64,000 nucleotides of DNA, taken from positions 1,488,001-1,552,000 of the forward strand of contig CP002084.1 in assembly GCA_000143165.1 (NCBI GenBank), given 5' to 3'. This document shows positions 26,075-43,158 of the stretch, piece after piece (positions within the stretch are counted from its first letter, which is position 1; each line of letters opens with the position of its first letter). The position numbers and the translations under genes are program-made. Below the pieces are notes generated by a model. The model had not been told where the DNA came from and made no database searches. It was given only the letters and a program-made list of their open reading frames with translations. The DNA is from Dehalogenimonas lykanthroporepellens BL-DC-9 (GTDB lineage: Bacteria > Chloroflexota > Dehalococcoidia > Dehalococcoidales > Dehalococcoidaceae).

Positions 26075-26180
26075 TGCTTAGACGAATTAGTCCTTTTGAC
26101 CGATGTTAAGAACAATAACAGGGGTATACAATACATTAACAGTAACTGTAGAAGTTATAAAAACCGTAAAAGGGGGGAGT

Positions 26181-27578
26181 ATGACCAGATTCCACACCAC
26201 AGTTTCCCGAAGGGAGTTCATGAAAGGGCTTGGGCTTGCCGGATCCGGGTTGGGAGCGGCGTCGGTAATTGGCGCCAATTTTACTGACCTGGATGAAATG
26301 GTTGTCGCCAACAATGCTGGTATTGGGAATCCATGGTGGGTACAAGAAAGAGAAGCCTACAACCCAACAAATGGAGTGGATTGGGATTTTATTAAACCCT
26401 TCGCTCCTGATTTCCAAGGCTATCGATTCGGGATAAAAGAAGGAGACCCTTTCCCGGAAGTTCGTTCTCAATGGGAACTAGCTCAACTGAAAGCAAATGC
26501 TCCTGGGATGTCTCTGAGAGATATAGCTTTAGATGAAGGGTGGTTGTTTGCTCGCCGGAACTCCACTGCTAACGGCTTGTATCAAGTGGATTTTACTGGT
26601 GAAAAAGTCACTACTCCTGAAGAACGGGGTGTCCCCAGATATTCTGCCAGCCAGGAAGAGGCTTCTAAGGTTGTACGTGCCGCTTTGCATAACTACGGAT
26701 CTCCCCGAGTCGGTTTCTTGGAATTCGATGAACGAATACAGAATTTGATTGTGGGCGCTGGTAACGCTCGTATCGAAGATGTTGATGAAGCTTATATGGA
26801 TGGGAGTGTCCATGTCATCCCAAGAAAATGCAAGTGGTTGATAGTGGCTAATGTGTGGCAATCTATACCGCACACCAAATTCGGGGACCACACTCAGGAC
26901 CCTCCGGCAGATCAGGTAAAATTGAATGTTGGCTCAACTAATGGGTATTCGACAGCTACTATTATTACCCGTAGGCTCCAGAGATTTATTAAAAGCCTGG
27001 GTTATCAGGCTTTAGGTGGCTATGGTACCGGTCCTGTGTCATATAATGTGGCGGCTGGTATTATGGCAGGGTTATCCGAGCTCAGCCGTAATGCACATCA
27101 ATTAACTCCCGATGTCGGCACTATCGTCCGCGTGGCTATATGCACCATTACCGACTTGCCTCTTGAGCCGACCAAACCAATCGATTCCGGCATGCATAAG
27201 TTTTGTTATACCTGTAAAATCTGCGGCGAGGTTTGTCCTTGGGATTCCATTGACATGGATACCGACCCTTCTTTTGATATTCCGACTAACAATACATGGA
27301 CCAGGCCAGGTTACAGCCGCTGGGCGATGAATTTTATCAAGTGTCACGGATGCCCGCATTGTGACGCGTCATGCCCATTTGGCACTCCTGGTGCCGCTTC
27401 TATTCATGATGTCGTTCGCGCAACGGTTTCGACAACTTCGTTATTCAATGGGTTCTTCACCAACATGGATAAGTTCATGGGTTATGGTCAGAGTCAGGCT
27501 TATGATGAATGGTGGGATAGAGACCTGAAAGCAAATAACAATGATACCATTCTAAATGCCGCTACGGTTAAAGCTTAG
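26181..27578 (+). CDS. rdhA: reductive dehalogenase catalytic subunit, intact, without rdhB
   Basis: 465 residues from ATG 26181, chosen because GGGGGGAG lies just upstream and the Tat signal SRREFMKGLGLAG then falls at residue 9; a longer in-frame start at 26103 would bury it. The first Fe-S site is Cys342, 345, 348 and 352 (CYTCKICGEVCP). The second is Cys388, 391, 394 and 398 (CHGCPHCDASCP), a full ferredoxin-like motif. The ending FNGFFTNMDKFMGY...EWWDRDL is typical. It should be an exported cobamide/Fe-S dehalogenase. No rdhB follows; 39 bp downstream starts another, truncated rdhA. Confidence 0.94.
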   Translation: MTRFHTTVSRREFMKGLGLAGSGLGAASVIGANFTDLDEMVVANNAGIGNPWWVQEREAYNPTNGVDWDFIKPFAPDFQGYRFGIKEGDPFPEVRSQWELAQLKANAPGMSLRDIALDEGWLFARRNSTANGLYQVDFTGEKVTTPEERGVPRYSASQEEASKVVRAALHNYGSPRVGFLEFDERIQNLIVGAGNARIEDVDEAYMDGSVHVIPRKCKWLIVANVWQSIPHTKFGDHTQDPPADQVKLNVGSTNGYSTATIITRRLQRFIKSLGYQALGGYGTGPVSYNVAAGIMAGLSELSRNAHQLTPDVGTIVRVAICTITDLPLEPTKPIDSGMHKFCYTCKICGEVCPWDSIDMDTDPSFDIPTNNTWTRPGYSRWAMNFIKCHGCPHCDASCPFGTPGAASIHDVVRATVSTTSLFNGFFTNMDKFMGYGQSQAYDEWWDRDLKANNNDTILNAATVKA

Positions 27579-27617
27579 AAAAGAACCTAATAGAACATAT
27601 AATGTAAAGGAGATGAT

Positions 27618-27765
27618 ATGACCAAATTCCACACCACAGTATCCCGGAGAGACTTCATGAAAGGGCTTGGGCTTGCCGGGGCGGGTCTCGGCGCCGCGTC
27701 GGTGGCTGGCCCATCCTTTCAAGACCTGGACGCTTTCAATGCCGCCCCGGAAACGAACTACCGTG
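27618..27765 (+). pseudogene. rdhA: reductive dehalogenase rdhA stump cut by IS3 copy C
   Basis: Starts at ATG 27618 after AAGGAG and encodes a perfect Tat signal (SRRDFMKGLGLAGAGLG) and 49 native residues before IS3 copy C begins; translation would stop at TAG 27771 inside the IS. The rest of the gene is not on the far side of the IS, and the IS flanks (GTG and GGT) do not match. The remainder was therefore lost by a deletion or recombination at the IS. A short exported signal-peptide-only product could still be made. Confidence 0.88.
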
Positions 27766-27827
27766 TGAGATAGGATGGATAAAACGGACACCAAAGTCAG
27801 GTAAAATAGAGAGACGGAGGTGTCAGG

Positions 27828-28145
27828 ATGGAAAGGATTCCACACGGGAAGTATACGAGGGAGTTCAGGCTGGAAGCGGTGAAGCTGGTGACAGAGGATA
27901 AATTGTCTGTGGCGGAAGCTGCCAGGCGGCTGGCACTGCCGTCAAACACCTTGGACAACTGGCTCAGGAAACACAGAGCCGGCAAGCTTGAAGAAGTGGG
28001 CAAGTCATACCGGCCGCTGACAGAAGTAGAGATGGAGCTGGCCCGGGTAAAGAAGGAAAATGCCGAACTCAAAATGGAGCGGGAAATATTAAAAAAAGCA
28101 GCCGCGTACTTTGCCAGGGAGTCGCTGCCCGGTACGCGGCGATGA
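27828..28145 (+). CDS. IS3 OrfA, copy C
   Basis: 105 residues, same as OrfA of copy A; overlaps orfB by ATGA. Confidence 0.92.
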   Translation: MERIPHGKYTREFRLEAVKLVTEDKLSVAEAARRLALPSNTLDNWLRKHRAGKLEEVGKSYRPLTEVEMELARVKKENAELKMEREILKKAAAYFARESLPGTRR

Positions 28146-29002
28146 AAGAACTGCGGCTCAAATATCCAGTCCCTATTCTCCGGCGAATGCTTGGTGTCTC
28201 CGGTAGCGGCTTTTATGCCTGGATGGATAGGCCTTTATCGAAGCGGGGTCAGGAGGAAGCGCGGCTTGAGTTGGAGATCAAGGCAGCGGATAAGCGGACG
28301 CGCCAGACCTATGGGCCGGAGCGACTACAGCGGGATTTGGCAGCGCACGGCGTGAAGGTGGGTATTTGCCGTATCAAGCGTATCCGGAAAAAGCTGGGGA
28401 TACGTTGCAAACAGAAGAGTAAGTTCAAGGTTACCACGGATTCCAGGCACAGGTTGCCGGTAGCCGGAAACCTGTTGGCGCAGAAGTTTGTGGCCTCCAG
28501 GCCGAATGATGTATGGCTCACCGATATCACCTATATTTCCACCGATGAAGGTTGGCTGTATCTGGCAGGCCACAAGGACCTGTGGAATGGCGAAATTGTC
28601 GGATATGCCATGGGTAAGCGCTTGACCAGAAACCTGGTCAATGAGTCTTTGCTTCGGGCGGTGGCCGCTAAACATCCGGCCGAGGGGCTGTTGCACCACT
28701 CTGACCGGGGTAGCCAGTATTGCTCCCTTGAGTACCGGCGACTACTGGAACGATTTGGCTTGAGAGCTTCCATGAGCCGGAAAGGGAACTGCTACGACAA
28801 CGCACCTATGGAGAGCTTCTGGGGAACGCTAAAACAGGAACTGGTGAATCATCGGCGCTATAGAACCAGACAAGAAGCCATCCGGGAGATCACGGAGTAT
28901 ATCGAAATCTTCTACAACCGGCAACGCCGGCAAGCCAGGCTGGGATTCTTGTCGCCGGCGGCTTATGCTCAACAATTCTACGCAGGACTGGTGGCGGCAT
29001 GA
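28142..29002 (+). CDS. IS3 OrfB DDE transposase, copy C
   Basis: 286 residues, same protein as copy A (KQKSKFK variant), which suggests that A and C are the most recently related pair. DDE residues intact. Confidence 0.93.
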   Translation: MKELRLKYPVPILRRMLGVSGSGFYAWMDRPLSKRGQEEARLELEIKAADKRTRQTYGPERLQRDLAAHGVKVGICRIKRIRKKLGIRCKQKSKFKVTTDSRHRLPVAGNLLAQKFVASRPNDVWLTDITYISTDEGWLYLAGHKDLWNGEIVGYAMGKRLTRNLVNESLLRAVAAKHPAEGLLHHSDRGSQYCSLEYRRLLERFGLRASMSRKGNCYDNAPMESFWGTLKQELVNHRRYRTRQEAIREITEYIEIFYNRQRRQARLGFLSPAAYAQQFYAGLVAA

Positions 29003-29130
29003 AAGGTTTGGTGTCCGAATTTGACATCCGACCTCAGGTTACGGACGGAAGCGAGGTGTTTGAGATGAATGGATGAAGAGGGGTTCACCGGATATTCAAG
29101 AGTATTTAAATGAATGAAAGGAAAATTCAT

Positions 29131-29544
29131 ATGAAGTTCAAGAAACGGTTTCTAATGGTTTTCATGTCACTGACTCTCCTGGTGGGGATGATGGGTGGAG
29201 GTGGTGTGGCTGCGGCGGATGAATCAACTCAGCCGAGCGGTGGGGTAGCTTTTGTCGTAGTTAATGGGAATCAGATTGTGGCTAAGGAGGGAACCGTAGT
29301 CGCCACTGCAACTCCTATTCCTGGATCTAACAGTTGCAAGTTGCCAAATATCAGAGTCATTGGCGGGGGAGATGCAAACATTGCGTTTGTCTCAATTCGG
29401 CTACTTGTCACGGAAGACTACCAGGTGGTTGTCGATAAAGTGATCTTTGACACCGTTGCGCATCCTGAACCATCTCGTCCGAAAGGCGCGATTCCGCAGG
29501 ATCCTAGACTCAACTCTGCCGTGGATCTTTCGGAAATTACTTAA
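29131..29544 (+). CDS. secreted protein of unknown function (possible 5' half of a broken gene)
   Basis: 137 residues from ATG 29131 (AAAGGAAAATTC upstream; an upstream ATG at 29110 lacks a site). It has a clear Sec signal peptide (MKFKKRFLMVFMSLTLLVG, cleavage near AAADE). The rest, with VVVNGNQIVAKEGTVVATA and IAFVSIRLLVTEDYQVV, looks beta-rich; I do not recognise the family. It stops at TAA 29542-29544, but the same frame reopens seven bases later and encodes the next 129 residues. The two may have been one 269-residue exported protein before a nonsense mutation. Confidence 0.6.
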   Translation: MKFKKRFLMVFMSLTLLVGMMGGGGVAAADESTQPSGGVAFVVVNGNQIVAKEGTVVATATPIPGSNSCKLPNIRVIGGGDANIAFVSIRLLVTEDYQVVVDKVIFDTVAHPEPSRPKGAIPQDPRLNSAVDLSEIT

Positions 29545-29550
29545 GGTACG

Positions 29551-29940
29551 ATGGGAATACTTTCCACACACTTTCGCGGGTGGGCAGAACAAGACTATAA
29601 CGACGTTATTGGATGGGACCTGACCACCGTTCACACAGGTTTTGATTACTATGACAGCGGAACCTCCATGTGGGGCGTCAGTAATCCGGACTGTTGGTAT
29701 AGCTATTTATTTGATGGTTGGTATAACCTTTCAAATGCTGCATATTGGGATCCGAACAGTTCAAGCTACATATGGGTGAATGAAGAAGCATCTTTCCGTT
29801 TTTCCGGAATGCGTTGGGAGCATTGGCAAAAAATCCAATATAACGCTTGGCCTGGAGGCTGGAACTATTGGTCTGACTTTAGTGGTGCCCTGGTTCCGCT
29901 TGGATATTTGGATACAAGCGGTGGGCGGAATATAATCTGA
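29551..29940 (+). CDS. unknown aromatic-rich protein, likely 3' half of the preceding gene
   Basis: 129 residues in the same frame as the gene before it, after a single TAA. It is very rich in Trp, Tyr and Gly (STHFRGWAEQDYNDVIGWD, HTGFDYYDSG, WYSYLFDGWYN), like the extracytoplasmic beta domains of secreted proteins, yet has no signal peptide of its own. Only a weak AAGG lies before ATG 29551. It is best read as the C-terminal part of a secreted protein separated from its signal by a stop codon. A terminator follows. Confidence 0.55.
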   Translation: MGILSTHFRGWAEQDYNDVIGWDLTTVHTGFDYYDSGTSMWGVSNPDCWYSYLFDGWYNLSNAAYWDPNSSSYIWVNEEASFRFSGMRWEHWQKIQYNAWPGGWNYWSDFSGALVPLGYLDTSGGRNII

Positions 29941-30390: not shown

Positions 30391-30621
30391 CTACCCTGCA
30401 TCCCGCCCCTTCTTCCACTCGATGACCAAGACAGTTATCAACAGCACAATTCCGGTCAGCATCAACCCCAGCCCGACGGGCGGGGAACACAACACCGTTC
30501 ACCTTAAACCAAAAATAGGCCCGGAGATGAACATGTCAACGGCGGGGATGGCCAGCATAACCAGGCCGGTGATACTGAGTATCCGTGCCGGTTTGATGTG
30601 CGGTTTTGTTGGCTGATTCAT
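30391..30621 (-). pseudogene. two-helix membrane protein with in-frame stop, coupled to the kinase
   Basis: Starts at ATG 30621, sharing its A with the kinase stop (TAATG), so it is translationally coupled. The frame reads a first membrane helix (ILSITGLVMLAIPAVDMFI), hits TGA at 30499-30501, and continues in the same frame with a second helix (LGLMLTGIVLLITVLVIEW) to TAG at 30391. Without the TGA it would be a 76-residue protein. Either the gene is broken or only a 40-residue one-helix peptide is made. The second copy of the cassette (at 36966) has no such gene behind it. Confidence 0.5.
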
Positions 30622-31976
30622 TATCTTTCCTCACTTGCCAACGGCAGTCTAATGGTAAATGTTGCACCCTCGCCCGGCGCGCTTTCCACTTCCATCCGCC
30701 CCCGGTAAATCTGCGCCGTCCCCTGGACGATGGACAGCCCCAATCCGGTGCCTTCCACCCGGCGGTCAATGCGGTAGAACCTTTCCCCCAGGTGGGGCAG
30801 GTGTTCCGGACTGATGCCGATACCGGTGTCGGTAATACTGATGATGATCTCGCCGTTCCGTTTTTCCAGCGTGAGGCTGATTTTGCCGCCCGGCGGCGTA
30901 TATTTCACGGCATTGGACAGCAGGTTGTCGAAAAGATTATCGAACTGGAGGTTGTTGCCGTAAATCCATGTCTCCGCTTCGATGTATTGCGTCAACTCGA
31001 TATCTTTGTTCTTTATAGGTGTTTCCCAACGGCTGACTACTTCACGGGCAATGGTGGCGAGGTTCAGTTCCCGGCTGTCTTGCGGCACCGGCCCGGCGTC
31101 CAGCCCGGCCAGTGTCAGGAGGTCTTCCACGATGAGGCGCATCCTTCCTACCTGGCCGGAGACGACAGTCAGCGCCTGGCGGTATTCTTCAGAGTTTCGC
31201 TCCTTCATCAGCGCCAGATCAGTTTCAGCCTTGATCACCGTCAGCGGTGAAGTCAGGTCATGCGAGGCGTTGGCGGTGAAGCGGTATTGGCGGTCGATGA
31301 AACCGTGAATACGGTCGAAGAGGGCGTTGAGCGTGCCGGAAAGCCTGCCCAGTTCGTCTTCATGCTTCACCGGTATCCGGTCTTCCAGCTTTGCCGGGTC
31401 AATCTTCTCGGCGGTATCGGTAATGACCCGCACCTGTCTCAGTGAATTGTGAGCCAGGAAGAAACCGGAGATGCCGGAGACGACTAGGGCTAAGGGGATA
31501 GCGGCAAAAAGGACGTTCCGGTATTCCTCCAGCATGTTGCCGATGTAGCTGGAGTCACGGGTTACTACCAAAAACTTGCCCGGGTCCGATTCATTGTATT
31601 GTCCGATGCCCATACGCAGGTGGCCGTCAAGCCATTCTCTTAATTGAATGCTGGTACCTAAAAAGATGAAATCTGTTAGAGATGTGTGGATGTCATCGGC
31701 AACTGAAGGATTACCAAGTAACGTTTCACTTTCTGAGTCATAGATGAAAGCTGAGCCGGGAATCTGGCTCTCCAGTTCTTCGAGAATACCAACGAGGTCG
31801 TGGTCGGGGCTCAATGAGATGACAGCTTTAGCTCTGTCAAAATCTGTCCTTAATGATTCACTCAAGTTGTGGGACAGACCAGATGACAACAGAGCCACGG
31901 ATATCCAGCCTGCCGCTACCAGTGTGAGCGCCATAACGGTAGTGTAAACAAATGTCAGTTTTAGCTTAACACTCAC
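30621..31976 (-). CDS. membrane sensor histidine kinase, cassette copy 1
   Basis: 451 residues from GTG 31976, which overlaps the stop of the regulator fragment as GTGA. Layout: TM1 (about residues 9-30), extracytoplasmic sensor of about 120 residues, TM2 (about 155-177), HAMP, HisKA with the phospho-His in RFTANASHDLTSPLTVIKAE, and HATPase_c (NLLSNAVKYTPPGG, ITDTGIGISPEH, GTGLGLSIV). From HAMP on, it is nearly identical to the kinase at 36966. About 440 bp (31029-31468) match base for base as far as I can read, whereas the sensor domain is strongly diverged. Its adjacent regulator has lost the receiver domain, so it may phosphorylate the regulator of copy 2. Confidence 0.92.
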   Translation of the reverse strand: MSVKLKLTFVYTTVMALTLVAAGWISVALLSSGLSHNLSESLRTDFDRAKAVISLSPDHDLVGILEELESQIPGSAFIYDSESETLLGNPSVADDIHTSLTDFIFLGTSIQLREWLDGHLRMGIGQYNESDPGKFLVVTRDSSYIGNMLEEYRNVLFAAIPLALVVSGISGFFLAHNSLRQVRVITDTAEKIDPAKLEDRIPVKHEDELGRLSGTLNALFDRIHGFIDRQYRFTANASHDLTSPLTVIKAETDLALMKERNSEEYRQALTVVSGQVGRMRLIVEDLLTLAGLDAGPVPQDSRELNLATIAREVVSRWETPIKNKDIELTQYIEAETWIYGNNLQFDNLFDNLLSNAVKYTPPGGKISLTLEKRNGEIIISITDTGIGISPEHLPHLGERFYRIDRRVEGTGLGLSIVQGTAQIYRGRMEVESAPGEGATFTIRLPLASEER

Positions 31977-32293
31977 CGGTTTAGCCTGTAGCCGCAACCC
32001 CTGACTGTCTGAATAGGGCCGGTTTGCGGGTCCCACCCCAGTTTCTCCCGCAATCTTTTGATGACGACGTCCACCACATTGGACTTGAAATCTTTGTCGT
32101 GGGTTGTCGAAATATACTCTTCTATTCTGACGCGTTCGATTATGACATTGGGATTGTTGGCGAACAGTTCCAGAACTCTGAATTCACTGGCCGTTAACTC
32201 TACTGTTTCTCCTTTAAGGCTGACCCGGTGAGCCGTTATATCGATAGTAATTCCATCTATATCTATAATCCGCATAGTAAAAGAATGATACAT
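31973..32293 (-). pseudogene. OmpR-family response regulator, DNA-binding domain only (receiver lost)
   Basis: The last 100 residues match the C-terminal winged helix of the regulator at 38315 almost exactly (IDGITIDITAHRVSLKGE ... VRGCGYRLNR). The receiver domain is replaced by about 250 bp of unrelated sequence (32276-32535); homology to copy 2 resumes around the old start codon (near 32540). Weak ATG starts at 32293 and 32275 have no good ribosome site. If translated, it would be an unregulated DNA-binding domain able to compete for the same sites; otherwise it is a dead remnant that keeps the kinase coupled. Confidence 0.75.
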
Positions 32294-32604
32294 GCTTTAG
32301 TCGGAAGGTAATTTCTGGCGGATTAAACAGGTACGCCGGAGCCGGCGGTGACCTGAAAAGGACAGCCGGGGTTGAGTCAGGGGAAGAAGCGGACGTTCAG
32401 AAAGTATTTCATTGTGGAATTATTTCGCGGCATGCCGCGGCGGTCTGTTGGATTTGGGTTACTTAACCATCATAACCCATCGAGGTTATCATTTCAACCC
32501 TCGTCGCGGTTTTTGGCTTCATTTTGTTGGCGGCAGGTCATGACCCGGTACTAATTACCCATTACTAAATTCTTTTATACCGTTCTCTTCCAGTAGTTTA
32601 GCCA

Positions 32605-33600
32605 TTAGACAGCCTTCTTTCGGCTACTCCCGACAGCCATTACGCCCGGTTTTACTTCCGGTTTAGGCTGGAGTTTCCGCCCCGGCTTATAAGGCTTACC
32701 CGTTACTACCCGCCTTGCCCTGTGTAATTCAGCCGGGACAATATGCGGTTTTTCAACTGTGATTTTACGGCTGGGTTCATCTACCCGGATGACTTCAGTC
32801 CAGCTTTTAGCATCGTAGTCTATCCCCGCCGCTTGTGCCGGTGTAGTATTCCCCAAGCCTTCATGCGGCCTGATGAAGTTGTAGTATGCGATAAAGCCGT
32901 CAGTAAACCTTAAGGCCGTTTCAGCGTTCCGTAATGCCCGCATTACTTTGGTGCGTTCTTTTAAGGTGCTATGCCATCGTTCTATCCGGTTAGTTGAGTG
33001 TTCAGCCATTACCGGCCCGCTTCTGATATGGTCGGCTTCTTCCCCGAATACTTCCCGGCTGGCATCTATGTATGCCCGGAGTTTGTCCGTCATTATCACC
33101 TTAGGTGATTTACCCGCCCGGTTCTTGGCTAACTGGAATAGCGTTTTAGCGTCTGATGTATTCCGGGTATAGCTGAGTTTGCTGGCAAGTAAGAACCGTG
33201 TTTTATCGTCTATGATGTCCCATAGCCAAACGTCTTTACCGTCAAGACTCAGTACCGTTTCATCGGCGATCCAAGTGTCACCGACATTCGGCCTGTATTG
33301 GTCGTAATGGTCAACAGCCTTATCGGTGAACTTGTTTATCCACTTGAACACCACCGACTTAGACGGCATATAGTCTTTTTCCTGTTTGAGTTGATGGCGT
33401 ATATCGTCAATGCTCATGCCCCGGTAGTACATGGACATAGCGGAACTGACGTATTCGGCGGGTACTCGGCAGTCAAACAATGCGTCATCATCCTTGAACT
33501 TGCGGTTACAGTCCTTGCAAAAGTACATCTGAGTTCCGCTTTGGATACCGAACTTGATTACGTTTTCGGAGTCACAATGTTTACATATTAATTCACTCAT
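32605..33600 (-). CDS. IS6-like DDE transposase with N-terminal zinc ribbon
   Basis: 331 residues from ATG 33600. The N-terminus has a zinc ribbon (CKHC ... CKDCNRKF) as in IS1/IS6-like and archaeal elements. An HTH region follows (MSIDDIRHQLKQ, SVVFKWINKF), then a DDE core with Asp in WIADETVL, Asp in VIMTDKLRAY and Glu in NRIERWHSTLKERTK, ending YNFIRPHEGLGNTTPAQAAG. A basic proline-rich tail of about 70 residues (KPYKPGRKLQPKPE) is longer than usual. The start lies one base after the stop of the upstream gene, so the two are coupled. Exact family assignment (IS6 versus a related group) is uncertain. Confidence 0.88.
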   Translation of the reverse strand: MSELICKHCDSENVIKFGIQSGTQMYFCKDCNRKFKDDDALFDCRVPAEYVSSAMSMYYRGMSIDDIRHQLKQEKDYMPSKSVVFKWINKFTDKAVDHYDQYRPNVGDTWIADETVLSLDGKDVWLWDIIDDKTRFLLASKLSYTRNTSDAKTLFQLAKNRAGKSPKVIMTDKLRAYIDASREVFGEEADHIRSGPVMAEHSTNRIERWHSTLKERTKVMRALRNAETALRFTDGFIAYYNFIRPHEGLGNTTPAQAAGIDYDAKSWTEVIRVDEPSRKITVEKPHIVPAELHRARRVVTGKPYKPGRKLQPKPEVKPGVMAVGSSRKKAV

Positions 33601-33601
33601 T

Positions 33602-34282
33602 TTATACGGCCTCATTCAGTTTATTTGCTAATATCACAATAGTATTGCCAACGCCTTGCGGTTGCATACTCTCTAATTGGCGGACTTTAGTACTCACGTA
33701 TAATCCACCTCGTTTTTTTATTTTGGTAAAGAACAAGATACAATTATAAACATCATGCCAGTAATTCAAATGACGATGAACCGCATTTCTAAATGGGACA
33801 CTCTTTAGCCTCATTTTACTTTCTAAGTCAGCACGTAAAGCCAAGTACTGTTTATCGTTAACTATTTCCTTAACACCCATGCCGTTTTCATCCATTAGGG
33901 TAGAAATATAATCTATCGCTTTATAACCGAAAAACATACCACTAAAGAGTATTAGTAGCATATTGCCTAACCCAAACGCTTTATTTTCTTGCTCAATAGG
34001 AATGGATTTACCTTTTACTACTGGCAATAACTCATACAATCGGTTATCCATTTTCTCTATAATTACAAGTATTTCATCAATGCTTTTATTCTTTCGGCGG
34101 GTTGTTTGTGCTTTCTCAATTTTTCCTTTTGGGATAGTATTAAGCGATGATGACAATGGTTTAAATGGGTTAGAGACAAACAACACCAAACCCGCCAATA
34201 CTAAACACCAAATAACAAGCGTTTGGGCGGCATCTGGTGTTATCCACCCGGTTTCGGGCAACACAAAGGCGGTTACCCACAT
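33602..34282 (-). CDS. membrane protein passenger of the insertion sequence, unknown function
   Basis: 226 residues. Two hydrophobic segments near the N-terminus (about residues 1-40), a basic linker (KGKIEKAQTTRRKNKS), a coiled-coil-like part, another segment around residue 100 (NMLLILFSGMFFGYKAIDYI), and a soluble C-terminal part. I recognise no family. It lies wholly between the inverted repeats and ends one base before the transposase start, so it moves with the element and is probably co-translated. Passenger genes encoding membrane proteins are unusual in simple IS elements. Confidence 0.7.
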   Translation of the reverse strand: MWVTAFVLPETGWITPDAAQTLVIWCLVLAGLVLFVSNPFKPLSSSLNTIPKGKIEKAQTTRRKNKSIDEILVIIEKMDNRLYELLPVVKGKSIPIEQENKAFGLGNMLLILFSGMFFGYKAIDYISTLMDENGMGVKEIVNDKQYLALRADLESKMRLKSVPFRNAVHRHLNYWHDVYNCILFFTKIKKRGGLYVSTKVRQLESMQPQGVGNTIVILANKLNEAV

Positions 34283-34395
34283 AAGCCCACCGAGTATCTT
34301 TTTAGCCGTAATATCCCCCTAGTCTTACTAGGGAAGATTATACTTCTGCTACTGAAGGGTAAACAACTTTTAGAGAACGGTATGAATTCTTTTGA

Positions 34396-34451
34396 TTGTC
34401 ATCGAATTGTCATCCAAAATTCATCTCCTGTTCATCTTCGGGTGGTATTCT
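34396..34451 (+). promoter_or_regulatory. OmpR/PhoB-type direct repeats and -10 box, cassette copy 1
   Basis: Four 11-bp repeats: TTGTCATCGAA, TTGTCATCCAA, AATTCATCTCC, TGTTCATCTTC (34396-34439). Six bases (GGGTGG) follow, then TATTCT (34446-34451). This is the geometry of PhoB-class activated promoters, which replace the -35 box. The sequence parallels 39025-39080. The gene it served is now only a fragment. Confidence 0.7.
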
Positions 34452-34499
34452 TTAATTATAAAAGAGTTTCTGGCATCAGGAAATTATGACAAGACCATC

Positions 34500-34655
34500 A
34501 CATCTGCAAAACACTGTGATCAAGCCGGTGTTTACATCTACGAATATGCTGATTTCGGGGGTTCCTATTTCTATATGCCGCCGGGCTCTACCTGGAGCAT
34601 GCTCACCTTCCAGGGTTGGAATGACCGAATTTCTTCGATCTGGGCGTTGGGATAA
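34500..34655 (+). pseudogene. C-terminal fragment of a beta/gamma-crystallin-like secreted protein
   Basis: The last 50 residues (GVYIYEYADFGGSYFYMPPG, then STWSMLTFQGWNDRISSIWALG) match the end of the protein encoded at 39106 nearly residue for residue, and the promoter upstream matches too. The signal peptide and N-terminal two thirds are missing: the homology jumps from the promoter to the C-terminal domain. This is the deleted paralogue in cassette copy 1. Confidence 0.85.
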
Positions 34656-34806
34656 ACATAGGCCGCTTTGGATGTCAGTCGCGGACGGAAATGAGGTGTT
34701 TGATGAATGGATGAAGAGGGGAGCTTCGCCCCAAAAGAATCTCAAGGTTCAACGAAGAGGTCTTAGCTACCGGTATTAATAAAAAGATAACGAGAGGAAT
34801 AGTCAA

Positions 34807-35997
34807 ATGAGAAAGTCAATATTTGCCATTCTTGCGGTGTTATTAATTCTTTCAAATATAACAATGGAGAGTGTTATATTTGAAGCAAAAAGTGATAATG
34901 TAACTATAGCGGAAGCAAGTGAAGTCGGGCAATATTTCAAACAATGTTATGGTGATATTGTGGATTCGACTTGGAATAACTCTGATATTCTTGGGCCTGT
35001 TGTTTATTATGCGGTTGATGGTACTAAAGTAGCTTATGAGTTTACGGTAGTAAACATGGACGAACCCATCGGTTACGTGATCATCTCTGCTACAAAAGAC
35101 TTGCCACCACTCTTGGAGGCTGGTGAAGGAAGATCACCGAGCAGTTATCTCAAAGAAACCAAAAATTTAGCGATAATGGAAAATCTAACCTCCTCTGCTG
35201 ATAAACCTAGATTTCTATGGTGGGGAGCGCTGACGTATTCGGTTCAATACGGTGAACAAATGAAGGAAAAGGGGTTGGCAATTCATTTACAGTCCGGCAG
35301 GATAATGAGTGTGCCCAGTGAGTTACCTGTTTTTGAGGTTGACACTACACTTGCTGAGGCCGCTTGGATTGAGGTAATGAACAAGTCCAATCAAGTGGGA
35401 ACAGTAGTTAGAAGCTCCAACTATCACTGGATTACTGGAGTGCCTTGTTATTATCAACAGGGTTGGAGTGGTGGACATGGTGATGACTATAGCCAATATG
35501 CCACGTGGCCTTCCTGTCGCGGTACTGGTGCAGACCCATGGGCAAAATGGGATGGCTGTACTCCAATCGCTGGTTCAATGATTCTTGGGTATTGGGACGG
35601 AATGGGTTATACATCCATTCCTAATGGTGAGGATCTTTTAATCGATGATTGCCATCATTGGATGCATACTGACTTTGACGGGTTTACTACTGGAAGTGAC
35701 ATTGATGACGGGCTTGAAAATCTATTAGAAGAATATGGTTACAATGACTTTAGTGTGAGGAATGATGGACATGTGGCTTGGAGTGATATCACGATTCATG
35801 TCGATAATGATTATCCAGAAATATTGTCGTTCGTTTTCAATCCAACTTATGGAAATCATTCCGTTGCAGTGGTTGGCTACATTGAAGATGGCGAAAACAA
35901 ACAAATAATTATCCATGATACTCTGACTGCATCTGCAGCGTGGATTGGTTGGGGTACGTTTGCTTATCCCATTATCACGATGTGTAATCCAGAGTAA
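34807..35997 (+). CDS. secreted C39-like cysteine peptidase
   Basis: 396 residues. An N-terminal hydrophobic signal (FAILAVLLILSNI) is followed by a propeptide-like region with GYVIISATKDLPPLLEAGEG, resembling the pro-domain of streptopain-type peptidases. The catalytic domain has a likely nucleophile in WDGCTPIAGSMILGYW (Cys near residue 256), a His in GNHSVAVVGY and an Asp in IIIHDT, the order of papain-like C39 peptidases. It should be exported and may process itself. GAGAGG lies upstream of ATG 34807. Substrate unknown. It sits between the two sensor-kinase cassettes, among other envelope genes. Confidence 0.8.
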   Translation: MRKSIFAILAVLLILSNITMESVIFEAKSDNVTIAEASEVGQYFKQCYGDIVDSTWNNSDILGPVVYYAVDGTKVAYEFTVVNMDEPIGYVIISATKDLPPLLEAGEGRSPSSYLKETKNLAIMENLTSSADKPRFLWWGALTYSVQYGEQMKEKGLAIHLQSGRIMSVPSELPVFEVDTTLAEAAWIEVMNKSNQVGTVVRSSNYHWITGVPCYYQQGWSGGHGDDYSQYATWPSCRGTGADPWAKWDGCTPIAGSMILGYWDGMGYTSIPNGEDLLIDDCHHWMHTDFDGFTTGSDIDDGLENLLEEYGYNDFSVRNDGHVAWSDITIHVDNDYPEILSFVFNPTYGNHSVAVVGYIEDGENKQIIIHDTLTASAAWIGWGTFAYPIITMCNPE

Positions 35998-36131
35998 AGT
36001 CTTTCAATTAGGGGCGCATTGGGAGGCAATTTCTCTAAATGCCCCCTAAATTGTTGTAACAGTTAAAATTGAAGTTTAAACTGATTTGTCTAATTTGTGT
36101 ATCGGTTTATCTTCAGCGCTGAGGTAGAGTA

Positions 36132-36938
36132 ATGAATGTTCACCAGGTATTCAAGATTTGGGTAGACCGTAATTGGCGTATCATGATTACTATTTGGTTA
36201 TTAATATACGTGCCGATTATTCTCTTTACCATATTAATTCATGAATTGATGCGTATTGCGGATGGTAGTATTTTAGTTACTGTGATTGATTTACTTGTTC
36301 ATTATTTTGTATCGGTCACGGGCCCTTCGTTGATTCTTTCGTTTGCAGTCTATGCCATGATCCTAGTGGTGATAAATTTAAAAAATACTGATATTACCAG
36401 TTCCCTCACACACATAAAGTTCAAATGGCTGTGGCACTATTTTCCCATTGTTTGGTTAGGGGCAGTGTCACCGTGTTTGATTTTGGCGTCGCTTCAGTCA
36501 GGCGGGTTAAGTTTAACTGATTTTATTATCCCATGTATCGTTAGTGTCGTATTTTCAATTATCGTCTTTTATGTTTATCTCAACAGAAGCCATTCAGCGC
36601 GTTTTAGGAATAGAATTATCAACTATTGTCAAAAATTAAGTAATGATTGGAAGAATGCGGAATATTTATTAATATGGATAGGTGTCTTTTGGGTAGCACC
36701 ATCTTATAAAATCCATGCTATATTAGGTTTTGGGAACTCAAAGCCGGATTTTTTACAGTTTGGTGGTCTTTATTTTATTAAGGAAACCTTGGGGGGTGGG
36801 CTCTTTCCGTTAATCTACCAACTAATTCCTTTTATTGTTTTCACTATTGCCTTCGCTGGTCTCTTGTATATGATATTCCTTCCAACTAAAGCGTTGGTAT
36901 TGGGACTGATGCAGGTTCGTTCAAAAGATAGTAAGTAA
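36132..36938 (+). CDS. polytopic membrane protein, unknown
   Basis: 268 residues, AT-rich relative to its neighbours, with about six membrane segments (for example IWLLIYVPIILFTILIHELM, LIYQLIPFIVFTIAFAGLLYMIFL). GAGG lies before ATG 36132. No domain recognised. It converges with the kinase at 36966 on the other strand. Its low G+C compared with the flanking kinase genes suggests a different origin. Confidence 0.6.
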   Translation: MNVHQVFKIWVDRNWRIMITIWLLIYVPIILFTILIHELMRIADGSILVTVIDLLVHYFVSVTGPSLILSFAVYAMILVVINLKNTDITSSLTHIKFKWLWHYFPIVWLGAVSPCLILASLQSGGLSLTDFIIPCIVSVVFSIIVFYVYLNRSHSARFRNRIINYCQKLSNDWKNAEYLLIWIGVFWVAPSYKIHAILGFGNSKPDFLQFGGLYFIKETLGGGLFPLIYQLIPFIVFTIAFAGLLYMIFLPTKALVLGLMQVRSKDSK

Positions 36939-36965
36939 TAGTTAGCCTTTAGGATTACCCCCGAT

Positions 36966-38318
36966 TCATTTTCTTTCCTCATTTACCGGCAGTCTGACGG
37001 TAAATGTTGAACCTTCGCCCGATTTACTCGCCACTTCCATCTTTCCCCGGTATATCTGCGCCGTCCCCTGGACGATGGACAGCCCCAGTCCGGTGCCTTC
37101 CACCCGGCGGTCAATGCGGTAGAACCTCTCCCCTAGGTGAGGCAGGTGTTCCGGGCTGATGCCGATACCGGTGTCGGTCACGCTGATGATGATCTCGCCG
37201 TTCTGTTTTTCCAGCGTGAGGCTGATTCTGCCGCCCGGCGGTGTGTATTTGACGGCGTTGGAGAGCAGGTTGTCGAAAAGATTATCGAACTGGAGGTTGT
37301 TGCCGTAAATCCATGTCTCCGCTTCGATGTCTTGCGTCAGTTTGATGTCTTTGTTCTTTATCGGTGTTTCCCAGCGGCTGACTACTTCACGGGCAATGGT
37401 GGCGAGGTTCAGTTCCCGGCTGTCTTGCGGCACCGGCCCGGCGTCCAGCCCGGCCAGTGTCAGGAGGTCTTCCACGATGAGGCGCATCCTTCCTACCTGG
37501 CCGGAGACGACAGTCAGCGCCTGGCGGTATTCTTCAGAGTTTCGCTCCTTCATCAGCGCCAGATCAGTTTCAGCCTTGATCACCGTCAGCGGTGAAGTCA
37601 GGTCATGCGAGGCGTTGGCGGTGAAGCGGTATTGGCGGTCGATGAAACCGTGAATACGGTCGAAGAGGGCGTTGAGCGTGCCGGAAAGCCTGCCCAGTTC
37701 GTCTTCATGCTTCACCGGTATCCGGTCTTCCAGCTTTGCCGGGTCAATCTTCTCGGCGGTATCGGTAATGACCCGCACCTGTCTCAGTGAATTGTGAGCC
37801 AGGAAGAAACCGGTACCGGAAGCGATTATTAGAGCGAAGGGGATGGCCATATACAGAATATTTTTGTACTGGTCAAGGACATTGTATATGAAGTTTGAGT
37901 CACGTGCCGCTACCAACAGCTTGCCGGGGGTTGATGCGTCATATGCACCGATACCCATGCGCACTTGACCGGTGGTGCTATCTCTGGAATGGAGAAGGGG
38001 TACCGGCTCCAAACTGGTCAATGTTGATAGTACATGCTTTCCCAAAGACTGGTCGCCGGTCAGCGCTCCGCTTTCGGTGTCATAGATAAAAAGAGAACTC
38101 GGGACACTATCTTCCAATTCTTCGAGCGCGGCGGCAATGTCATCATCCGAGTGACGTTCTATGGCGGTTTTTGCGCGTTCGTAATCCGCCATAATCGCAT
38201 TATCCAGATCATGAAACAAGCCGTATGACAGAAACGCCCAGGAAACCCACCCGGTTACAGCCAGGGTAACCACCATCACCGCTGAATAGATTAGCGTCAG
38301 TTTTAGCTTAACACTCAC
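36966..38318 (-). CDS. membrane sensor histidine kinase, cassette copy 2
   Basis: 450 residues from GTG 38318, overlapping the regulator stop as GTGA. Same layout as the kinase at 30621: TM1, a sensor of about 120 residues, TM2, HAMP, HisKA (NASHDLTSPLTVIKAE), HATPase_c (VTDTGIGISPEH). The kinase core is nearly identical to copy 1, but the sensor differs strongly (for example YGLFHDLDNAIMADYERAKT against SGLSHNLSESLRTDFDRAKA). It should sense an envelope signal and phosphorylate the regulator encoded just upstream. Confidence 0.94.
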   Translation of the reverse strand: MSVKLKLTLIYSAVMVVTLAVTGWVSWAFLSYGLFHDLDNAIMADYERAKTAIERHSDDDIAAALEELEDSVPSSLFIYDTESGALTGDQSLGKHVLSTLTSLEPVPLLHSRDSTTGQVRMGIGAYDASTPGKLLVAARDSNFIYNVLDQYKNILYMAIPFALIIASGTGFFLAHNSLRQVRVITDTAEKIDPAKLEDRIPVKHEDELGRLSGTLNALFDRIHGFIDRQYRFTANASHDLTSPLTVIKAETDLALMKERNSEEYRQALTVVSGQVGRMRLIVEDLLTLAGLDAGPVPQDSRELNLATIAREVVSRWETPIKNKDIKLTQDIEAETWIYGNNLQFDNLFDNLLSNAVKYTPPGGRISLTLEKQNGEIIISVTDTGIGISPEHLPHLGERFYRIDRRVEGTGLGLSIVQGTAQIYRGKMEVASKSGEGSTFTVRLPVNEERK

Positions 38319-38986
38319 CGGTTCAGCCTGTAACCGCAACCCCTGACTGTTTGGATAGGGCCGGTTTGCGGGTCCCACCCCAGTTTCTCCCGCAGTCTTT
38401 TGATGATGACGTCCACCACATTGGACTTGAAATCCTTGTCGTGGGTTGTCGAAATATACTCTTCTATCCTGACGCGTTCGATTATGACATTGGGATTGTT
38501 GGCGAACAGTTCCAGAACTCTGAATTCGTTGGCCGTTAACTCTACTGTTTCCCCTTTAAGGCTGACCCGGTGAGCCGTTATATCGATGGTAATCCCGTCT
38601 ATTTCTATCACCAGGGGCGCCATCTGGCGGGGTCGCCTGCCAAGTGCGCAGATACGAGCGAAAAGCTCATTGTATTCGAAGGGTTTGGCTAAATAGTCGT
38701 CAGCTCCTGTGTTCAAGCCCTGGGCTTTTTCCTGTGCTGTACCTCTGGCGGTCAGCATCAGAATTGGAGTCGTCACTCCAGCTTTTCTTAAATCCTGGCA
38801 AACGCTGAAACCGTCTTTGTCGGGCAACATGATATCCAGAATGATGAGATCGAAGGGCGTGTTTCCGGCAAACGTTTCTCCATCTCCACCGGTGTAGACG
38901 CATTCCACCACATGCCCCGCTTCCCCTGCGGCGCGGGAGAAGGTTGCGCACAACTGTTCATCGTCGTCAATCAGCAGGATTTTCAT
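38315..38986 (-). CDS. OmpR/PhoB-family response regulator, cassette copy 2 (intact)
   Basis: 223 residues. The receiver has ILLIDDDEQL, the phospho-acceptor Asp in DLIILDIMLPDKDG, and Lys in DDYLAKPFEYNEL. The winged helix has LTANEFRVLELFANNPN, VVDVIIKRLREKLG and IQTVRGCGYRLNR. It is coupled to its kinase. The divergent intergenic region (38987-39105) carries four 11-bp-spaced repeats of the type bound by this family, so it probably controls the crystallin-like gene next to it, and by motif also the ABC operon at 46.4 kb. Confidence 0.95.
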   Translation of the reverse strand: MKILLIDDDEQLCATFSRAAGEAGHVVECVYTGGDGETFAGNTPFDLIILDIMLPDKDGFSVCQDLRKAGVTTPILMLTARGTAQEKAQGLNTGADDYLAKPFEYNELFARICALGRRPRQMAPLVIEIDGITIDITAHRVSLKGETVELTANEFRVLELFANNPNVIIERVRIEEYISTTHDKDFKSNVVDVIIKRLREKLGWDPQTGPIQTVRGCGYRLNR

Positions 38987-39024
38987 TGCCCCGGTACTAT
39001 TTACCCATGACTACATTCTTTTGA

Positions 39025-39080
39025 TTGTCATCGAATTGTCATCAAAATGTCATCGTCTGTTCATCTTTGAGTGGTATTCT
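39025..39080 (+). promoter_or_regulatory. OmpR/PhoB-type direct repeats and -10 box, cassette copy 2
   Basis: Four tandem 11-mers: TTGTCATCGAA, TTGTCATCAAA, ATGTCATCGTC, TGTTCATCTTT (39025-39068). Six bases (GAGTGG) follow, then TATTCT (39075-39080). The start codon at 39106 is 25 bp further on. The repeat unit resembles the PhoB half-site CTGTCAT with 11-bp periodicity, fitting a PhoB-family regulator dimer pair upstream of a -35-less promoter. Confidence 0.75.
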
Positions 39081-39105
39081 TTAATGAAAAAAGTGGGGGA
39101 CTATC

Positions 39106-39780
39106 ATGAAAAAACGTTTTCCATCGGTTATATGTGTCGCTCTGGCGCTGATTGTCGCCTCCTCCAGCCCTATCCTGTCAGCTTCAGATACTGAAAAATA
39201 CACCTATGGAACAGGGGCTGTCAATAACAGTTATGCAGGACTCTTAAAACCATCGCAGATTGAGGCCATGTATCCCATGTCCGCGGAGGCCGAATCGTCT
39301 CTCGTTCATGTCATTCCTGAATGTCCGGTTATTGTTGACGGGGTTTGGTTCAAAGCAGAAGACATCATTCTTTTCAACGGTCAGCGGCTTCGTTTCACTG
39401 TGGATAAGGCAGGTCAGTTATACGCGTTTGCCACGGCGGTGGGGCTGGAAAAGTTCGTCGAAGCTGAATACGGAAAGGTGTTCGATGGTGCGGGTAGCAT
39501 TGGCACCCTCTCTACAGGTCTGAGTAAATCGGAATTTTTTGTTGATATGTGGTATAGGGGAGCAAAACTCCCTATAGAACCTGGTATGCAAGTGGGAGAT
39601 CTCGGTGGGTTTGAGAATGCTTTCTCATCTGCCAAAATCTGTGATCAAGTCGGTGTTTACATCTACGAATATGCTGATTTCGGGGGTTCCTATTTCTATA
39701 TGCCGCCGGGCTCTACCTGGAGCATGCTCACATTCCAGGGCTGGAATGACCGGGCGTCTTCAATCATAGCTTTAGGGTGA
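39106..39780 (+). CDS. secreted protein with C-terminal beta/gamma-crystallin (inhibitor I36-like) domain
   Basis: 224 residues. A Sec signal peptide (MKKRFPSVICVALALIVASS, cleavage after LSA) is followed by an unrecognised middle part. The C-terminal 50 residues have the crystallin-like pattern VYIYEYADFGGSYFYMPPGS ... LTFQGWNDRASSIIALG, as in peptidase-inhibitor family I36 and related calcium-binding proteins. Extracytoplasmic; role as inhibitor or structural protein not settled. It is divergent from the sensor-kinase regulator gene and has the PhoB-type promoter at 39025, hence a likely regulon output. GGGGGA precedes ATG 39106. A deleted copy lies at 34500. Confidence 0.82.
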   Translation: MKKRFPSVICVALALIVASSSPILSASDTEKYTYGTGAVNNSYAGLLKPSQIEAMYPMSAEAESSLVHVIPECPVIVDGVWFKAEDIILFNGQRLRFTVDKAGQLYAFATAVGLEKFVEAEYGKVFDGAGSIGTLSTGLSKSEFFVDMWYRGAKLPIEPGMQVGDLGGFENAFSSAKICDQVGVYIYEYADFGGSYFYMPPGSTWSMLTFQGWNDRASSIIALG

Positions 39781-39862: not shown

Positions 39863-40351
39863 ATGAAAAATCTTATTAATACAGTTATGTTCACAACTAC
39901 CATTCTTTTATCTTGTTTGGTTAGCGGCTGTGTTTTATCTTCAAACCAAGAAGGAGAAATGATTTTACCTCCAGTCGAATTTGTAAGCGCGAAAACGTAT
40001 AATGATAATGGTCTTGTCGTATTATATATGCGACCATTTGATAATGAAATTACAAACGAAGAGATTGTATTCATCAAATCTGAATTACTTGAATACTATC
40101 CCCAATTTTATTATGATCCGGATGGTGTTCTCAAAGCTGTCGATCCCTTACCAACGTTTCCAGTTGGTAGCAAACTCGTGGCATTTGGATATGCCATTTA
40201 TAATGACCGTATATCCAATTCTTATTATGGAAGTATAGGGAATGCAACAGATATAAGCCCCGTCTATGAGAAAGCTCAAGAATGGTTTATTAATGAGTTG
40301 GCAAGGTCCAATTGGGGTAGGATGGATAAAACGGACACCAAAGTCAGGTAA
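39863..40351 (+). CDS. lipoprotein, unknown; last codon altered by IS3 copy D
   Basis: Lipobox VSGC (Cys near residue 23) after a hydrophobic signal; the rest (for example SAKTYNDNGLVVLYMRPFDN) is not recognised. The IS3 copy at 40313 sits exactly at the 3' end: removing it gives AAT followed by TGA (41588-41590), so the native protein has 150 residues. With the IS, translation runs 12 residues into the IS (WGRMDKTDTKVR) before TAA. The protein is thus probably still functional. Natively, its stop overlapped the start of the caspase-like gene (TTGA), so the two were coupled and the IS broke that link. Confidence 0.75.
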   Translation: MKNLINTVMFTTTILLSCLVSGCVLSSNQEGEMILPPVEFVSAKTYNDNGLVVLYMRPFDNEITNEEIVFIKSELLEYYPQFYYDPDGVLKAVDPLPTFPVGSKLVAFGYAIYNDRISNSYYGSIGNATDISPVYEKAQEWFINELARSNWGRMDKTDTKVR

Positions 40352-40375
40352 AATAAGACAGACGGAGGTGTCAGG

Positions 40376-40693
40376 ATGGAAAGGATTCCACACGGGAAGT
40401 ATACGAGGGAGTTCAGGCTGGAAGCGGTGAAGCTGGTGACAGAGGATAAGTTGTCTGTGGCGGAAGCTGCCAGGCGGCTGGCACTGCCGTCAAACACCTT
40501 GGACAACTGGCTCAGGAAACACAGAGCCGGCAAGCTTGAAGAAGTGGGCAAGTCATACCGGCCGCTGACAGAAGTAGAGATGGAGCTGGCCCGGGTAAAG
40601 AAGGAAAATGCCGAACTCAAAATGGAGCGGGAAATATTAAAAAAAGCAGCCGCGTACTTTGCCAGGGAGTCGCTGCCCGGTACGCGGCGATGA
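40376..40693 (+). CDS. IS3 OrfA, copy D
   Basis: 105 residues, same protein as in the other copies, with HTH and coiled coil. Confidence 0.92.
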   Translation: MERIPHGKYTREFRLEAVKLVTEDKLSVAEAARRLALPSNTLDNWLRKHRAGKLEEVGKSYRPLTEVEMELARVKKENAELKMEREILKKAAAYFARESLPGTRR

Positions 40694-41550
40694 AAGAACT
40701 GCGGCTCAAATATCCAGTCCCTATTCTCCGGCGAATGCTTGGTGTCTCCGGTAGCGGCTTTTATGCCTGGATGGATAGGCCTTTATCGAAGCGGGGTCAG
40801 GAGGAAGCGCGGCTTGAGTTGGAGATCAAGGCAGCGGATAAGCGGACGCGCCAGACCTATGGGCCGGAGCGACTACAGCGGGATTTGGCGGCGCACGGCG
40901 TGAGGGTGGGTATTTGCCGTATCAAGCGCATCCGGAAAAAGCTGGGGATACGTTGCAAACAGAAGCGTAAGTTCAAGGTTACCACGGATTCCAGGCACAG
41001 GTTGCCGGTAGCCGGAAACCTGTTGGCGCAGAAGTTTGTAACCTCCAGGCCGAATGAGGTATGGCTCACCGATATCACCTATATTTCTACCGATGAAGGT
41101 TGGCTGTATCTGGCAGGCCACAAGGACCTGTGGAATGGCGAAATTGTCGGATATGCCATGGGTAAGCGCTTGACCAGAAACCTGGTCAATGAGTCTTTGC
41201 TTCGGGCGGTGGCCGCTAAACACCCGGCCGAGGGGCTGTTGCACCACTCTGACCGGGGCAGCCAGTATTGCTCCCTCGAGTACCGGCGACTACTGGAACG
41301 ATTTGGCTTGAGAGCTTCCATGAGCCGGAAAGGGAACTGCTACGACAACGCACCTATGGAGAGCTTCTGGGGAACGCTAAAACAGGAACTGGTGAATCAT
41401 CGGCGCTATAGAACCAGACAAGAAGCCATCCGGGAGATCACGGAGTATATCGAAATCTTCTACAACCGGCAACGCCGGCAAGCCAGGCTGGGATTCTTGT
41501 CGCCGGCGGCTTATGCTCAACAATTCTACGCAGGACTGGTGGCGGCATGA
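40690..41550 (+). CDS. IS3 OrfB DDE transposase, copy D
   Basis: 286 residues; differs from copy A at a few positions (GVRVG, KQKRKFK, FVTSRPNEVW). DDE residues intact. Confidence 0.93.
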   Translation: MKELRLKYPVPILRRMLGVSGSGFYAWMDRPLSKRGQEEARLELEIKAADKRTRQTYGPERLQRDLAAHGVRVGICRIKRIRKKLGIRCKQKRKFKVTTDSRHRLPVAGNLLAQKFVTSRPNEVWLTDITYISTDEGWLYLAGHKDLWNGEIVGYAMGKRLTRNLVNESLLRAVAAKHPAEGLLHHSDRGSQYCSLEYRRLLERFGLRASMSRKGNCYDNAPMESFWGTLKQELVNHRRYRTRQEAIREITEYIEIFYNRQRRQARLGFLSPAAYAQQFYAGLVAA

Positions 41551-41783
41551 AAGGTTTGGTGTCTGAATTTGACATCCGACCTCAAATTGATTAAGATTGG
41601 CACGAAAGACGGTTATTGGGTTTTTAGGCGATTATTAGCAGTACTCGTTGGAGCGACTGTTGTTGTGGTTTTTTTATTTGCTTTTCATTTGAGTGATAAA
41701 TCGCATGATAATAAAAAGTATATATTGTGGAGTGAAGATGTCTGGTTGTTAATTATTGGAGTTGGGGACTATCCATACGCAGG

Positions 41784-43158
41784 GGTAGTGTCCCGTCAAG
41801 TGGTGTAAATTCATCATTGGTGGTTTCCCGAATAATCAAGCTGGTAAAGCCATGATCAGGGGTTCCTCCTGCGCCCCTTCCAGCGTTTTCTTCATCGAAT
41901 CCAAAGAAAAGTAGCGTCGTCCGACCTCCCACTCGTCCTGCTGTTCCATTAACACCGCCCCAATCAGCCTGATTACCGATTGGCTGTTGGGAAAGATGCC
42001 GACCACATTACTGCGGCGCTTGATTTCCTTATTCAGTCTCTCCAGGGGATTGGTAGAGTACAGTTGCCGCCAGTGTTCCCGGGGGAAAGCGGTATAGGCC
42101 AGGATATCCGGTTCTGCCTCTTCCAGTTGGTCGGCAACAGGACCGAATCGGAGTCTGAGGTTATCGGCTACCCGGCGGAGCTGGCTGCAAGCGCTGTCGC
42201 GGTCAGGTTGAGCGAAGATGGTACGGATAGCGGCAGATACCATAGCCTGGGCGCCCCGTGGCACTCTGGCCAGCGCATTGCGCATGAAGTGCACCCGGCA
42301 ACGTTGCCACGATACCCCGGTGAGTACCGTGCTGATGGCTTCCTTCAGCCCCAGATGAGCATCACTGATTACCAGCATCACCCCGCTCAAACCACGGCTG
42401 ACCAGCCCCCGCAGAAACTCTTTCCAGAATACACCGTCTTCACTGGGGTCGACCTCAAGCCCGATGATCTCGCGTTCTCCGGTTTCCCGGACGCCGTAGG
42501 CGATAATTACCGCCTGACTGACCACCCGCCCGGTATCCCTGACCTTGACGTAGGTCGCATCCAGCCACAGATAGGGATAACGCCATAACAAAGGCCGGTG
42601 ACGCCATCGTTCCACTTCATCGTCCAGAGCCCCGCATATTCGCGATACCTCGCTCTTACTGACCCCGTTAAGACCCAGTGACTGAACCAGAGATTCCACC
42701 TTGCGGGTGCTGATGCCCAACACATAGGCTTCCTGGATTACCGCCAGCAAGGCATGTTCCGCCCGGCGCCGGGGCTCGAGTAAGCTGGGAAAATAACTGC
42801 CGTCCCGCAACCGGGGAATCGCCAAGGGTATCGTGCCGGCCCGGGTGTCCCAGATACGCCCCCGGTAGCCGTTACGGTAGGTTAAACGACCGTCACTGCG
42901 CTCATGTTTCTCAGCTCCGGTCTTCTGCTTAACCTCAAGCTCCATGACCGCTTCGGCCAGCATTTTCACCCCTTCTCTCAGAAAATCAAGATCACCGTCG
43001 CTTCCTGACTTGCGTAGCAGTTCCAAAAGTGTCATCCTGTCTTTGGCCATTGTTGTGGTTACCTCCTGAAAGTCTTTGTTGTTATTTTCTTTCAAGAAAC
43101 CACACAATGGCCTGCTTTTTCAATTCCAGGAATTTACACCACGTACGGGGATTCTACT
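41784..43158 (-). mobile_element. IS256-family insertion sequence, copy 2
   Basis: 1375 bp between 8-bp duplications TACGCAGG (41776-41783 and 43159-43166). Nearly identical to copy 1 and in inverted orientation relative to it. Confidence 0.95.
41836..43050 (-). CDS. IS256-family transposase, copy 2
   Basis: 404 residues; one visible difference from copy 1 (EVDPSED for EVGPSED). Same start choice by the AGGAGG site. Intact. Confidence 0.94.
   Translation of the reverse strand: MAKDRMTLLELLRKSGSDGDLDFLREGVKMLAEAVMELEVKQKTGAEKHERSDGRLTYRNGYRGRIWDTRAGTIPLAIPRLRDGSYFPSLLEPRRRAEHALLAVIQEAYVLGISTRKVESLVQSLGLNGVSKSEVSRICGALDDEVERWRHRPLLWRYPYLWLDATYVKVRDTGRVVSQAVIIAYGVRETGEREIIGLEVDPSEDGVFWKEFLRGLVSRGLSGVMLVISDAHLGLKEAISTVLTGVSWQRCRVHFMRNALARVPRGAQAMVSAAIRTIFAQPDRDSACSQLRRVADNLRLRFGPVADQLEEAEPDILAYTAFPREHWRQLYSTNPLERLNKEIKRRSNVVGIFPNSQSVIRLIGAVLMEQQDEWEVGRRYFSLDSMKKTLEGAQEEPLIMALPA

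Follow-up and report, generated by a model that had tools for sequence, protein, structure and literature searches.

At this locus two histidine kinases share nearly identical cores and carry strongly different sensors. The question is how such a pair arose and whether, as an earlier note on the sequence proposed, two signals could feed one regulator through it. The window (G000:C1:1488001-1552000) is a stretch of 64,000 nucleotides from the dechlorinating bacterium Dehalogenimonas lykanthroporepellens BL-DC-9, whose genome is a single contig of 1,686,510 bp. It contains two copies of a cassette in which the genes for an OmpR-type regulator and a kinase are divergent from a gene for a secreted beta/gamma-crystallin protein. 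A third cassette in the same genome (HK3, or K3, with RR3) lies at 452 kb. Further cassettes were sought in related genomes, and whole-cassette relatives were present in other Dehalogenimonas (G001, G005), in Dehalococcoides (G008, G010) and in other families of the same order. A scan of genome contigs for relatives of the kinases returned only distant gammaproteobacterial kinases (21-33% identity); the close relatives were taken from a separate genome search, and 11 kinases were used in the trees. By inspection, most crystallin genes of the family have 11-bp direct repeats upstream, together with a GTGCTAT-like -10. The papers searched gave no description of a cassette family with a beta/gamma-crystallin output and linkage to ectoine genes.

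Several other features of the window and of the relatives were recorded. An rdhA-like gene (26103-27578) is accompanied by an 87-bp repeat, 85% identical, between its 5' end (26180-26266) and a site just past its end (27617-27703). One IS family is present in four near-identical copies (6005-7277, 11012-12283, 27764-29036 and 40318-41585) and another in three (12637-14011, 41784-43158 and 59411-60789); at the ectoine (ect) locus, too, an IS copy adjoins a crystallin remnant. A secreted-protein gene (29110-29940) is broken by a stop near 29545, and an intact homologue lies beside the G005b cassette (L157 6893-7777). In G010 (L161), a second OmpR-type regulator gene (8025-8702; 43% identity to RR2) adjoins the 3' end of the cassette kinase gene in the opposite orientation.

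Copy 2 of the cassette is complete. RR2 (38315..38986, minus strand) contains a receiver and a winged helix (Trans_reg_C) by Pfam, which places it in the OmpR family of response regulators. Its kinase, HK2 (36966..38318, minus strand), and HK1 of copy 1 (30621..31976, minus strand) both score above the Pfam gathering thresholds for HAMP, HisKA and HATPase_c and are orthodox HAMP-containing histidine kinases. As first called, these two ORFs were each about 20 codons too long (to 38378 and 32036). The likely starts are GTG 38318 and GTG 31976, in GTGA overlaps with the regulator stop codons, and the identical N-terminal residues of the longer ORFs are thus overlap with regulator coding sequence. 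Between RR2 and the output gene lies a putative operator (38987..39105, plus strand) of four TGTCATC/TTCATC repeats at 11-bp spacing, with an extended -10 for the crystallin gene (39106..39780, plus strand). The product is a secreted protein whose C-terminal domain joins the beta/gamma-crystallins by Greek-key similarity to the solved members clostrillin and protein S in profile comparison (E ~1e-6); single-sequence Pfam hits fell below the cut-off, and the AlphaFold model was poor (pLDDT 32). Assignment to heavy-metal sensor pairs of the CusS/CusR type (TIGR01386/TIGR01387) was rejected, with kinase scores of 209-215 bits against a cut-off of 292.55 and a regulator score of 185 against 279.2.

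Copy 1 is eroded. All that is left of its regulator, RR1, is the Trans_reg_C domain (31973..32275, minus strand; the ORF extends to an ATG at 32293, MYHSFTM...). By Pfam it has neither a receiver domain nor a phospho-acceptor Asp and so does not qualify as an OmpR-family response regulator. The regulator C-termini are indeed paired, as had been claimed, at 95% identity over 313 bp, but the pair is an unequal one. In place of the receiver, RR1 now has the ectoine-operon leader: a 303-bp copy of the region upstream of ectABC (32274..32576, minus strand; 92% identical to G000:C1:1286700-1287006) is fused ahead of the DNA-binding domain, with the ectA leader and start codon in frame with it, and the remnant starts at this captured codon. 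The fusion ORF reads MYHSFTM/RIIDIDGITI... in copy 1 compared with MYHSFTIM/KINYRQ... at the ect locus. The captured segment includes a putative ect promoter, TTGAAA-17-TATGAT, with a palindrome, ATAACC-N5-GGTTAT, in its spacer (32469..32497, minus strand), so that the RR1 stub and HK1 stand behind an ect promoter, the original promoter of HK1 being interrupted. Upstream of the stub no clear ribosome-binding site was seen, and the leader had no Rfam match.

The promoter of copy 1 is split by an IS element of ~1.8 kb (32577..34384) with inverted ends ATACCGTTCTC, flanked by AATTCTTTT repeats. It encodes an IS240-type DDE transposase (32605-33615) and a passenger ORF (33602-34282). The element is present once in the genome. 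At the ect locus (L159), where the region upstream of ectABC lies at 1,286.7-1,287.0 kb, the operon is preceded by a crystallin remnant and an operator copy, directed away from ect, without this element, and the locus therefore represents its empty site. Beyond the insertion in copy 1 lies a putative operator and promoter (34386..34464, plus strand) with 11-bp direct repeats TTGTCATC and a -10. The pairing of the promoter repeats that the earlier note described was borne out (89% over 79 bp). The pairing of the crystallin-like outputs was not, as the copy-1 gene (34498..34665, plus strand) is a non-functional remnant: it consists of the final ~55 codons with their stop, and its frame contains neither a start codon nor a signal peptide. 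The promoter and the crystallin 3' end diverge by 11-12% between the copies.

Such losses raise the possibility that copy 1 is a decaying pseudo-cassette with no function at all: the receiver is gone, the crystallin gene is gutted, the promoter holds an IS, and the neighbouring secreted-protein gene is split as well. We regard this as somewhat unlikely. The HK1 ORF is open and retains all catalytic domains by Pfam, and the derived changes in the core, counted with G001a as main outgroup, are 5 nonsynonymous to 7 synonymous in HK1 and 8 to 10 in HK2, so HK1 is decaying no faster than HK2. The RR1 stub differs from RR2 by 3 nonsynonymous and 12 synonymous changes, where ~8 nonsynonymous changes would be expected had it been neutral since the leader fusion (P 0.03-0.04), although a later conversion from RR2 could also account for this shortfall.

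The two kinases are near-identical from HAMP onward, as first reported. Nucleotide identity in 15-codon windows is 38-71% over most of the sensor, rises to 100% at codon 196, stays there to about codon 330 and is then ~92% (91-98% over codons 331-450). The profile is stepwise rather than gradual, in agreement with the sharp drop at the end of TM2 noted earlier. The identical run begins at the TM2/HAMP boundary and covers HAMP, DHp and beyond, without a single difference over 439 bp (31030..31468 in HK1 and 37375..37813 in HK2, both minus strand); the run of about 440 bp claimed earlier is thus exact, with its starts (31029 and 37374) off by one base. Synonymous differences (Nei-Gojobori) were counted in the kinases and in the regulator DNA-binding domain. 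The sensor is saturated (96 of 116 sites); the tract shows none in 112 sites, and the remaining core 24 in 90 (a divergence of ~0.3). The contrast between the tract and its downstream flank (p=5e-10) identifies a gene conversion and strongly supports that part of the earlier proposal, as a recent event in HAMP-DHp. The DNA-binding domains of RR1 and RR2 differ at 12 of 67 synonymous sites, similar to the rest of the core (p=0.25). From these counts the pair combines an older, duplication-level divergence with one recent conversion tract that ends where sensor homology falls off.

The sensors of the two kinases have different ancestries. The segments concerned run from TM1 through the extracytoplasmic part to TM2 (HK1, 31470..31955; HK2, 37815..38297; both minus strand) and are homologous, with 48% identity. 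In the sensor tree (residues 21-188, 11 kinases), HK2 is sister to the G005a kinase (support 99/99; 69% amino-acid identity), and HK1 falls with G001b at a support of only 71/75. Sisterhood of the HK1 and HK2 sensors was rejected at p-AU 0.019, a moderate value from 11 kinases with nearly saturated sensors. In the core tree (residues 196-466), HK1 and HK2 are sisters at 100/100, G001a is next (90/92), and the AU test rejects HK2 with G005a at 3e-6 and HK1 with G001b at 2e-6. Informative nucleotide sites reverse in the same way: HK2 has 129 in common with G005a and 33 with HK1 in the sensor, against 0 and 66 in DHp. By triplet tests the breakpoints fall at residues 187-196, and the trees on either side differ significantly, which defines the two genes as mosaics. 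The earlier note was correct that the sensors differ strongly; the incongruent trees, the AU tests and the reversed site counts replace its divergence of sensing by exchange among paralogue lineages. A second paralogue pair, HK3 and G001b, likewise has sister cores (100/96) and sensors whose sisterhood is rejected (p 0.0285), and sensor exchange at the TM2/HAMP joint is therefore likely to be recurrent in the cassette family. Mosaicism also extends beyond the sensor, since G005a and G001a are more alike in DHp than in the flanking segments and the DHp of HK1 and HK2 departs from both. The AlphaFold model of the sensor was poor (pLDDT 53) and gives a hint of an alpha/beta, PAS-like domain.

Incongruent trees would be expected equally if the core had been overwritten and not the sensor replaced. 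HK1 and HK2 would then be two old paralogues with sensors of their own, made alike by conversion of the core and of the regulator DNA-binding domain, and a conversion tract is certain. We nonetheless consider it unlikely that conversion did all of this. The similar synonymous divergence of the DNA-binding domain and the rest of the core, given above, speaks against it, as does the 11-12% divergence of the promoter and crystallin 3' end. A single duplication of the whole cassette and a single replacement of the sensor also require less than a series of conversions on both sides of the sensor. Plain duplication followed by fast sensor divergence is very improbable: across the family, sensors do change more quickly than cores, but a difference in rate cannot flip the ranking, in which the HK2 sensor is nearer to a sensor from another species than to the HK1 sensor while the cores show the reverse.

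The history that we favor, and consider rather probable as a whole, is duplication and sensor exchange followed by conversion and by losses in copy 1 that leave two kinases acting on RR2. As the sequence shows, the whole cassette exists twice, and in one copy recombination has put the sensor of another family member in place of the original one, over a segment that starts within TM1 and reaches the end of TM2. A later gene conversion made identical the first 439 bp past TM2, including the dimerization and phosphotransfer domain DHp. Copy 1 subsequently lost both the receiver domain and the output gene, and the RR1 DNA-binding stub and HK1 came under the copied ectoine-operon promoter, from which HK1 is predicted to be transcribed. 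Both kinases would probably phosphorylate RR2, which may use the 11-bp repeats to activate the crystallin promoter, so that two stimuli would be integrated there. Apart from RR2, no complete regulator in the genome belongs to this core type; trees of the receiver and of the DNA-binding domain were too weakly supported to place the lineage of RR2. Because DHp is identical, the HK1 core is intact and RR2 stands alone as a complete regulator, RR2 is most likely the target of both HK1 and HK2. The suggestion that two signals could feed one regulator thus gains support, at the level of sequence, from the loss of the copy-1 receiver, which had not been part of it.

A bolder version of this history is that the locus has been functionally rewired, the ect promoter and leader driving both a sensor-swapped kinase and a receiver-less DNA-binding domain that would occupy RR2 operators free of phosphorylation. 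We think this quite unlikely. If it were true, salt stress would set the HK1 input together with a phosphorylation-independent competitor or activator, the RR1 stub, of the RR2 regulon.

Polymorphic peptide-sensing kinases such as ComP, ComD and AgrC also join a variable sensor half to a conserved kinase half. The D. lykanthroporepellens kinases resemble them in this respect, but those differences are allelic, between strains, and accompanied by a co-varying peptide, whereas here the two kinases are paralogues within a single genome, for which no co-varying peptide turned up. OmpR/PhoB-type systems share the HAMP-HisKA-HATPase_c kinase, the regulator with receiver and winged helix, and an operator of 11-bp direct repeats before the -10; unlike them, the present system has a secreted beta/gamma-crystallin as output, a regulator (RR1) cut to its DNA-binding domain and, in a relative (G001), ectABC directly downstream. 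For duplicated kinases, sensor rearrangement after lineage-specific expansion and loss of the cognate regulator have been described (Alm et al. 2006, as summarized in PMC3040137). Kinases of that kind likewise keep the core, change the sensor and are often separated from their cognate regulator. In contrast to them, the sensors here come from exchange between homologues within a single cassette family, and the breakpoints, the recent conversion tract and the receiver loss can be read at one locus. Sensor swapping in two-component systems was already known; what the sequence adds is the combination, at one place, of breakpoints and a conversion tract with receiver loss and promoter capture.

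The nature of the stimuli may be approached through the ectoine genes. EctA was identified by TIGR02406 (178 bits against a cut-off of 120.6), and ectB and ectC by gene order and PMC4918011 (Dehly_1306-1308). The TTGAAA-17-TATGAT promoter and its palindrome are found upstream of ectA in G001 and G005 (L155, L175) as well as at the D. lykanthroporepellens ect locus (L159 6781-6809), and the palindrome, conserved in three Dehalogenimonas, is a likely repressor site. In G001 the order on one strand is operator, regulator, kinase, ect promoter, ectA, ectB and ectC, followed by a single-domain response regulator and a rhomboid-like gene. The latter two also follow ectABC in D. lykanthroporepellens (1,287-1,290 kb), and the other flank of the G001 cassette matches window positions 43829-46273 at 81-86%; by comparison with the contiguous G001 locus, a rearrangement has split one locus in two. 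Cassette and ectC co-occur in the same 3 of 8 genomes of the genus (p 0.018). Among 156 genomes of the order, the crystallin gene is present in 12, ectC in 9 and both in 6 (p 4e-6, uncorrected for relatedness), and Dehalococcoides has the cassette without ect. The linkage to ectABC and the co-occurrence suggest osmotic or envelope stress as the stimuli. In the passages searched, PMC4918011 and PMC13390484 tie ectABC to higher NaCl tolerance in Dehalogenimonas and mention no regulator of ectABC, and a genus-wide study (PMC13390414) discusses two-component systems solely beside rdhA.

The locus would thus record a signaling pathway gaining a second input by sensor exchange; the breakpoint lies at TM2/HAMP, where engineered chimeric kinases are joined, and similar exchange appears to be recurrent in the family. 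By linkage and co-occurrence, the cassette may also offer a first candidate for the locus that regulates ectoine-linked salt tolerance, a trait that sets apart Dehalogenimonas strains used for bioremediation.
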